This document shows positions 16,012 through 17,660 of a stretch of 64,000 bases of DNA, in pieces. Each line of letters starts with the position of its first letter. Positions within the stretch are counted from its first letter, which is position 1. A program made the translations under genes and the position numbers. A model generated the notes under the pieces. The model was not told the origin of the DNA. It worked only from the letters and a program-made list of their open reading frames with translations, and did no database searches. The stretch is from an uncultured Clostridia bacterium (GTDB lineage: Bacteria > Bacillota > Clostridia > Christensenellales > UBA1242): assembly GCA_944377485.1 (NCBI GenBank), contig CALWFB010000006.1, positions 1 through 64,000 on the forward strand, read 5' to 3'.

Positions 16012-16039
16012 TTGACTTTTGAAAATTCTATTATATAAT
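16012..16039 (+). promoter_or_regulatory. Promoter of the Mn2+ riboswitch transcript
   Basis: TTGACT (16012-16017), 16-bp spacer, TATAAT (16034-16039). Start of transcription near 16046 would put the first riboswitch base at the RNA 5' end. Confidence 0.75.
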
Positions 16040-16046
16040 AAAAATA

Positions 16047-16148
16047 TAAAAAGGGAGTAGTTTCCACTAGCCCAAGTGGTCGTGAGGCGTCAAAACGGAC
16101 TAATTGTCCCGCTTTACGAGAGCAAATTTTGCTTTAACAAGACTTTTT
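16047..16148 (+). promoter_or_regulatory. yybP-ykoY (manganese-sensing) riboswitch
   Basis: The conserved parts of the class occur in order: AAAAAGGGAGTAG at the 5' end (16048-16060), a variable hairpin CCACT...AGTGG (16064-16079), the conserved loop CGTCAAAACGG...CCCGCTTTACG, a second hairpin AGCAAATTTTGCTT, and the 3' element TTTAACAAGACTTTTT. P1 forms AAAAAG with CTTTTT (16143-16148). This RNA binds Mn2+ between its two internal loops. It normally controls manganese exporters (MntP, TerC-like, P-type ATPases). The 3' strand of P1 is also part of the terminator hairpin at 16136-16174, so metal binding should block termination. Confidence 0.85.
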
Positions 16149-16176
16149 GATTATTCAGAAAGTCTTGTTTTTTGTT
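16136..16176 (+). terminator. Riboswitch expression-platform terminator
   Basis: AACAAGACTTT (16136-16146) pairs perfectly with AAAGTCTTGTT (16159-16169), followed by a T-run. The upstream arm overlaps the conserved 3' strand of the riboswitch, so aptamer and terminator exclude each other: transcription goes on when Mn2+ is bound. Confidence 0.85.
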
Positions 16177-16206
16177 CTTTCTGAAAATATAAAAGGAGAA
16201 AGAAAA

Positions 16207-16611
16207 ATGAAAAGAATTATTGAAAAAATGATTGCATTAGGGCTTACTGGAACCATAACAGCTTCACTGGTTGGACTTACTGGCTGTAGTAGAAGTTTTG
16301 ATATCTCAGATACTGAACTTAGCAATTATATTGTTGAGAAAAATGTTTATATTGTCGTTAACGAAAATGATATTGCAACCCTTCACAAAGGAGATGTGAT
16401 TTACCATGTTTATGGTAATAGAGGCTATACATTCACGCCTGTTTTAAAATTTAATTGTGGCGAAGAAATTACAACTTCTCAATATATTTCATATTATCAA
16501 ATTTGTCCAAACGAAGAAAAATATGACCAAGTTTGTGAGTGTGCTTACACGTTAATTAAACAAAATGAAACTTCAAACAAACAAGAACATAATCACGAGC
16601 AAGAACTATAA
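16207..16611 (+). CDS. Small lipoprotein under Mn2+ riboswitch control
   Basis: 134 aa from the ATG at 16207, which has AAAGGAGAAAG upstream; the earlier in-frame ATG at 16147 lies in the terminator hairpin and is not used. Signal sequence with basic MKR start, hydrophobic core (MIALGLTGTITASLVG) and lipobox LTGC (Cys about 27), so it is a membrane-anchored extracytoplasmic lipoprotein. The mature part has four further cysteines (FNCGEE, QICPNE, CECAY) and a C-terminal EHNHEQEL tail rich in His/Glu. No family recognised. The riboswitch and the His/Cys/Glu content make a metal-related role plausible, but that is inference. Confidence 0.8.
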   Translation: MKRIIEKMIALGLTGTITASLVGLTGCSRSFDISDTELSNYIVEKNVYIVVNENDIATLHKGDVIYHVYGNRGYTFTPVLKFNCGEEITTSQYISYYQICPNEEKYDQVCECAYTLIKQNETSNKQEHNHEQEL

Positions 16612-16647: not shown

Positions 16648-16678
16648 AAAAATTGCGAGATTTTACCTCGCAATTTTT
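16648..16678. terminator. Bidirectional terminator between lipoprotein and transglutaminase-like gene
   Basis: AAAAATTGCGAG (16648-16659) and CTCGCAATTTTT (16667-16678) form a 12-bp stem with A/T runs on both sides, between convergent genes. Confidence 0.85.
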
Positions 16679-16706: not shown

Positions 16707-17660
16707 TTATTCTTCAAAATTTAAGTTAGTGATTATACCATGGTTTTTCAATAATTGATAAACCCAAGTGTGCTCATATTTTTGAGGATTATTTCTCACC
16801 CTATCAAATGTTGGCTTTAAATAATTAGCTAAATCTTTTGTCGTCTTACCTTGACTATTAAAAACTGCTGTTAATGCTTTTGACATAATTGTTTCTGAAA
16901 TTTCATGAGTATTTTCTTTTGCAGATTTTAGTAATTTTTTATCCGCATTAAACAATTGTAATTCATTATTGTCTAAATTTTTCTTTATCTCGGAATCGTC
17001 ATAAAGTGAAAAAACATCATCTAAATCTTTTAGTATAATTGAAATAAATGTGTTTTTATTTGAAAGACAATCATAAGTTGGGTCAGAGTAATAAAGTGAA
17101 TTTTTTATGCCATATTTTTCATCGTTTATTAAAATCGCATTTATTGCATGCCAACCATCGACATTTATTGTTTTATCTACACTATTTATACCGATACGTG
17201 AACAAAGTTCATTTAATAATTTAGCAAAACCTACACATACACAATAATCAGAGTTTAGTACTGAAACAAATTTTCTTGATAACATTCTTAAACTTTTATC
17301 TTCACTTTCTTTATATTTTCTGTTTTTAACAATCATATATGCATAACAAAATTTTTCCAAAGGAGAAAGTTCTTTTCCATCAACTTTTGCACTATTTATC
17401 GTATTTGCCCAATCGTCTAACGTCTTTTTTGCAAAAAGTATATCCTTTAACTCATATAAAATTTGAGGTTCACCATATTCAGTTATATACAAAACTCTTC
17501 CGTTTTCTTTTAACAAAGAGTCCGCTTTTAAAATTGATGCAACTTTGTCCATGTTTTTTATGTTTTCTTTAACTACAATATTTATATTTGAATGACTTGT
17601 CAATTCTAAAAATTCTTTTAATTTGTTAGTATTTTTTAAGAATTTTAAGATATAGAGCAA
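16707..17660 (-). CDS. Transglutaminase-like cysteine protease-fold protein
   Basis: 317 aa. A transglutaminase-type triad is visible: Cys142 in CVCVGFAKLLNELC, His171 in DGWHAINA, Asp193 in YYSDPTYD. No signal peptide or membrane segment, so the protein is probably cytoplasmic or released another way. The N-terminal 75 residues (VLYITEYGEPQILYELKDI) and the C-terminal 100 are unassigned. The listed start is a TTG without a clear RBS; an ATG 36 codons in is possible. Bacterial proteins of this fold are usually proteases or amidases. Substrate unknown. Confidence 0.7.
   Translation of the reverse strand: MLYILKFLKNTNKLKEFLELTSHSNINIVVKENIKNMDKVASILKADSLLKENGRVLYITEYGEPQILYELKDILFAKKTLDDWANTINSAKVDGKELSPLEKFCYAYMIVKNRKYKESEDKSLRMLSRKFVSVLNSDYCVCVGFAKLLNELCSRIGINSVDKTINVDGWHAINAILINDEKYGIKNSLYYSDPTYDCLSNKNTFISIILKDLDDVFSLYDDSEIKKNLDNNELQLFNADKKLLKSAKENTHEISETIMSKALTAVFNSQGKTTKDLANYLKPTFDRVRNNPQKYEHTWVYQLLKNHGIITNLNFEE

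Follow-up and report, generated by a model that had tools for sequence, protein, structure and literature searches.

The DNA analyzed here was derived from an uncultured gut Clostridia bacterium with a genome of 1.02 Mb (98% complete), and the whole stretch of 64 kb is referred to as the window. The element under study occupied positions 16012–16611, with all of its features on the forward strand. Its promoter (16012–16039) consisted of a −35 box TTGACT (16012–16017), a 16-nt spacer, and a −10 box TATAAT (16034–16039), matching 11 of the 12 consensus positions, and TTGACA/TATAAT-like boxes at equal distance were also present in other leaders of the host family. Downstream of the promoter lay a yybP-ykoY-type aptamer with a four-way junction (16048–16149), delimited with the covariance model R2 and by covariation. 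It comprised the A/U-rich closing helix P1.1 (16049–16053/16143–16147), the closing helix P1.2 (16060–16062/16136–16138), and the helices P2 (16064–16068/16075–16079), P3 (16080–16089/16110–16119), P3.1 (16097–16100/16106–16109), and P4 (16120–16125/16129–16134). The loop L1 was formed by the 5′ side GGGAGUAG (16053–16060) and the 3′ side AAGAC (16139–16143), while L3 had the sequence UCAAAAC (16090–16096), in which A16092 is the counterpart of the published Mn2+-sensing adenosine (A41 of UCA41 in L. lactis, A48 in X. oryzae; PMC6754395).

The aptamer overlapped an intrinsic terminator (16136–16179), whose stem (16136–16150/16155–16169) of 15 pairs, including one G-U, was followed by a T-rich tail; one such stem was found versus 0.2 expected. 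The 5′ arm of the terminator (16136–16150) contained the 3′ strands of both P1.2 and P1.1. A third hairpin, designated H2 (16154–16185), was formed by pairing of UUCAGAAAG (16154–16162) with CUUUCUGAA (16177–16185), with the T tract in its loop. The fold of the leader had a z-score of −4.9, and none of 200 shuffled sequences was equally stable. A Shine–Dalgarno sequence GGAG (16195–16198) preceded a gene (16207–16611) encoding a lipoprotein of 134 amino acids with the lipobox cysteine C27. The next gene (16707–17660) was on the opposite strand, making the lipoprotein gene the only one downstream of the leader, and the palindrome between the two convergent genes (16648–16678) is probably a two-way terminator, judging from its sequence. 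When the window was scanned with R2, the aptamer scored 70.7 bits and the runner-up place in the 64 kb scored 11.6 bits, the former value being partly a matter of construction because R2 was built from 72 sequences that include the window. The promoter, aptamer, and overlapping terminator named by an earlier sequence-only reading were thus confirmed, as were the sole downstream gene and its product with five cysteines (C27, C84, C100, C110, and C112) and an EHNHEQEL tail.

The covariance-model search by which the sequence-only reading proposed to check its class assignment gave a divided result. With Rfam, the outcome that this reading had named as refuting literally occurred, but the positive controls invalidate that test. 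The Rfam model RF00080 had no match in the whole 64-kb window or elsewhere in the host genome, none in 401 bases of the leader under lax thresholds, and none at nine further loci, including relatives of Gemmiger, Angelakisella, and Clostridium. In the positive control, RF00080 gave the validated E. coli mntP leader 41.6 bits, below its cut-off of 45, and left the alx leader unreported. Since both of these validated leaders fall short as well, the miss is uninformative about the window. The printed structure of RF00080 (177 positions) was observed to lack the closing P1 pairing, and the model also missed many leaders of exporter genes across the order. By comparison, the model R1, built from 11 leaders of the host genus only and none from outside it, placed the mntP leader (29.3 bits, E = 1.2e-5) and the alx leader (24.2 bits, E = 2.4e-4) as its top two hits in 13 kb of E. 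coli DNA, so that this part of the search did identify the class. With R2, the same leaders scored 40.0 and 35.7 bits, respectively.

A pattern of two core motifs matched in 4 of 34 genomes of the genus (none with the reversed control), and a DNA search added further leaders. Scanning with R1 yielded 11 good copies in 10 of the 34 genus genomes, as well as matches in 66 of the 396 order genomes and 34 of the 309 family genomes. One place, G018:C5 (25 bits with R1), was taken as a false match because the L1 and L3 motifs were absent there. In the 11 genus leaders, 94.8% of the cells of a 30-pair structure supplied by hand were paired and 16 of the 30 pairs were doubly changed, which no shuffle reached. 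In 72 leaders, 93.8% of the cells were paired and 29 of the 30 pairs showed compensatory double changes, compared with 37–45% pairing in slid controls, although these counts lean towards the structure because the alignment was fitted to it by the model. GGGA and UA of L1 were invariant in the 72 leaders, AGAC was kept in at least 71, and the position of the Mn2+-sensing adenosine was kept in 70. Homology to the E. coli leaders, covariation, and the conserved core support the identification of the leader as a yybP-ykoY riboswitch, upholding the original assignment, with Mn2+ as its presumed ligand. At one further locus (L277), two Mn2+-type aptamers shared a strand and were separated by about 1 kb (G492:C2:766–869 and 1801–1899), each of them upstream of a different unknown gene.

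The overlapping terminator of the L. lactis leader is blocked when Mn2+ stabilizes P1.1 (PMC11087558). Because the layout of P1.1 and terminator is the same in the window, its leader probably acts as an ON switch as well. The computed energies were −27.1 kcal/mol for the aptamer, −35.9 kcal/mol for the aptamer plus H2, and −46.1 kcal/mol for the terminator; since the terminator is far lower in energy than the aptamer forms, OFF should be the default without ligand. At low Mn2+, the far more stable terminator stem (16136–16169) would take over the 3′ strand of the weak A/U-rich P1.1, and transcription would stop. Mn2+ bound between L1 and L3 at A16092 would hold P1.1 and block the terminator, allowing RNA polymerase to read through into the lipoprotein gene, after which H2 would capture the 3′ arm of the terminator and probably lock the read-through form.

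H2 competes with the terminator, with which it shares that arm, and is compatible with P1.1. The same arrangement recurred in 14 other leaders of the host family and was accompanied by compensatory changes, such as AGGAAG/CUUCCU in L278, CCAG/CUGG in L270, and CGAAAAG/CUUUUCG in L057, a count that leans towards pairing because the arms were picked for complementarity. Nevertheless, two-sided changes at several pairs of the predicted hairpin would be hard to get without real pairing. H2 can hardly prevent first-pass termination because RNA polymerase has passed the T tract by the time the 3′ arm of H2 is transcribed, and our guess is that H2 either locks the read-through form or shields the 5′ end of the mRNA.

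The N-terminus of the lipoprotein (MKRIIEKM...LVGLTGC) contained the charged n-region, hydrophobic stretch, and lipobox LTGC by which bacterial lipoproteins are recognized. Searches against Pfam, NCBIfam, PHROGs, and PDB sequences returned no credible match. A profile of the protein detected 29 genes in 26 of the 309 family genomes (E ≤ 1e-8), and in a sample of the remaining order its matches covered mainly the signal peptide; in the sequences searched, this orphan lipoprotein family is found only in the bacterial family of the host. Neither the leader pattern nor the lipoprotein was found in viral contigs. Eighteen aligned lipoproteins all kept the lipobox cysteine, His60 within LHKGD, and C84, while C110 was nearly invariant and followed by a further cysteine two or three residues on (C112 in the window); those with the CxC spacing of the window protein also carried C100. 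The EHNHEQEL tail was rejected as a metal site because this His-rich tail is not conserved among the aligned proteins. The predicted structure had a small all-beta core of moderate confidence (mean pLDDT 62.5), for which the fold search gave no match with E < 0.2, and VIA-align gave Z values of at most 4.6, to SH3-like or tudor-like cores, which is too weak to use.

Of the 29 lipoprotein genes, 10 had the aptamer in front of them. They belonged to two genera and were located at nine loci, namely the window, G009 (two genes), G013, G395, G511, G525, G529, G530, and G533, the last of which had its own second promoter besides the aptamer. The claim of an unusual lipoprotein target therefore held, since the protein recurs behind the same aptamer in both genera. 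For most of the 29 genes no aptamer was found nearby, most of these loci having been inspected, so that the lipoprotein is not always tied to Mn2+ control. The window protein was 41–46% identical to its closest proteins in the sister genus and 25–30% to those of its own genus. The product of the convergent neighbor (16707–17660) was 68% identical over 307 aa to that of the second gene behind the sister-genus Mn2+ leader L271. These similarities hint at a module shared between the genera, with paralogy as the alternative. The neighbor also contained a CVCVGF stretch that recalls transglutaminase-like proteins, and it had no match in Pfam.

Leaders of the yybP-ykoY class are usually accompanied by genes for P-type ATPases or other exporters. 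Outside the host family, 52 of the 55 leaders found in the order preceded transporter genes of the usual kind, comprising 25 P-type ATPases, 18 Na/Ca exchangers, 5 OAD-beta, and 4 CitMHS/ArsB-type proteins, with 3 others, according to a heuristic motif screen of which five loci were checked by Pfam. Inside the family, nearly all leaders inspected preceded small unknown lipoproteins or small membrane proteins, and the targets tested had no confident Pfam match. An exception was L285, from another genus of the family, with a Na/Ca-exchanger-like gene behind the leader. This comparison of downstream genes at homologous loci, proposed in the sequence-only reading, thus separated transporters outside the family from envelope proteins nearly throughout it. 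No known Mn2+ exporter was downstream of the window leader, and the type IIA (Ca/Mn-type) P-ATPase of the host genome lay elsewhere with no aptamer in front. A search of titles and abstracts found no relevant report of the yybP-ykoY class with a lipoprotein, the downstream-gene list of Dambach 2015 being outside its scope.

Two further features of the family leaders were observed. In the other main target class (L059, L062, L064, L126, L267, L269, L271, L275, L276, and others), the small proteins carried a membrane span at the N-terminus, followed by a coiled central part containing an F.nGEIs..Ef stretch, and many had a further span. In L055, L056, L057, and L059 (G004, G006, G014, and G021), a strong Shine–Dalgarno sequence and a start–stop mini-ORF (ATG TAA) lay after the terminator, about 35–45 nt past the aptamer, followed by a second Shine–Dalgarno sequence and then the real gene. 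This mini-ORF was kept in these four same-genus leaders, and L127 had a similar one (ATG AAA TAG).

Taken jointly, we consider it very probable that the element is a yybP-ykoY Mn2+ transcriptional ON switch driving a family-restricted envelope lipoprotein, a reading in which the anatomy, the homology to the class, the covariation, and the recurrence of the target are demonstrated, while the ligand, the direction, and the role of H2 are inferred. The suggestion of the sequence-only reading that the protein may bind metal or take part in stress responses is a guess. Speculatively, its sequence would allow transition-metal binding via the candidate ligands H60 and C84/C110/C112; equally speculatively, it may be located at the surface and be induced in response to Mn2+ as a signal from the environment. 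The latter idea belongs to an explanation whose probability comes close to even, according to which the Mn2+ switch works while the lipoprotein is a structural or surface protein, a small disulfide-stabilized beta domain without any metal role, and Mn2+ is a niche cue. It agrees with the small all-beta core of the predicted structure and with the other family targets of the switch, which are unrelated, fast-evolving membrane proteins. It is further favored by aptamer-free paralogues (L254, L257, L258, L259, L260, L261, L262, and L264), which had a strong TTGACA–TATAAT promoter directly before the Shine–Dalgarno sequence and a leader of only about 20–40 nt. However, the invariant histidine and three conserved cysteines are roughly as compatible with a metal site as with disulfides.

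It is improbable that the same RNA architecture responds in this lineage to another divalent metal, such as Fe2+, Co2+, Ni2+, or Cd2+. Such a ligand would explain why the targets in the host family are non-exporters, and a review names Co2+, Cd2+, and Ni2+ as further in vitro ligands of the class (PMC11477304), but conservation of the Mn2+ site (L1 and UCA of L3) was equally high inside and outside the family, and one model unites the family leaders with those of exporter genes. A plain terminator or chance structure without a riboswitch, to which the missing RF00080 match would point, has a very slight probability in view of the R2 score relative to the runner-up, the E. coli cross-matches, the covariation, and the intact core.

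The gene beside a riboswitch is usually interpreted through the ligand of the switch, and with Mn2+ as the ligand, this logic points repeatedly, in two genera of small-genome gut bacteria, to an unknown envelope protein family. If Mn2+ does induce these proteins, its role in these bacteria extends past efflux to the envelope. As a tentative wider interpretation, which we regard as possible but somewhat less probable than not, one bacterial family may have rewired a widespread Mn2+ riboswitch from exporters to fast-evolving envelope proteins (LHKGD lipoproteins and small membrane proteins), with Mn2+ as an envelope-remodeling cue and not only a toxin, and with H2 locking read-through. Moreover, because short representatives of the class escape the curated Rfam model, part of the Mn2+ regulon has probably gone unrecognized, and genome surveys with RF00080 will undercount the yybP-ykoY class.

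Among known proteins, the DUF903-type small SH3-like lipoproteins (for example, PDB 5cai) gave a weak structural match to the small all-beta core that the moderate-confidence model places after the lipobox (Z = 3.6 over 47 residues, a value too low to claim that the fold is shared), whereas the window protein differs by its conserved set of histidine and cysteines and had no detected sequence relation to them. As for arrangements of aptamers, a review states that no tandem Mn2+ riboswitches have been reported (PMC9481103), and the pair at L277 represents neighbors rather than a true tandem. The RNA itself belongs to a known class, and what is new is its target family, the recurrence of this target, and the extra hairpin. 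With the yybP-ykoY class (RF00080; L. lactis yoaB, X. oryzae, E. coli mntP and alx), the window leader shares the four-way junction, the GGGAGUAG/AGAC sides of L1, the UCA of L3 with the Mn-sensing adenosine, and a weak P1.1 overlapping the terminator. By contrast, members of the window type are short, A/U-rich, and below RF00080 detection, and the window leader differs by the extra hairpin H2 after the terminator and by its target, which is an orphan lipoprotein instead of an Mn2+ exporter or TerC-type protein.
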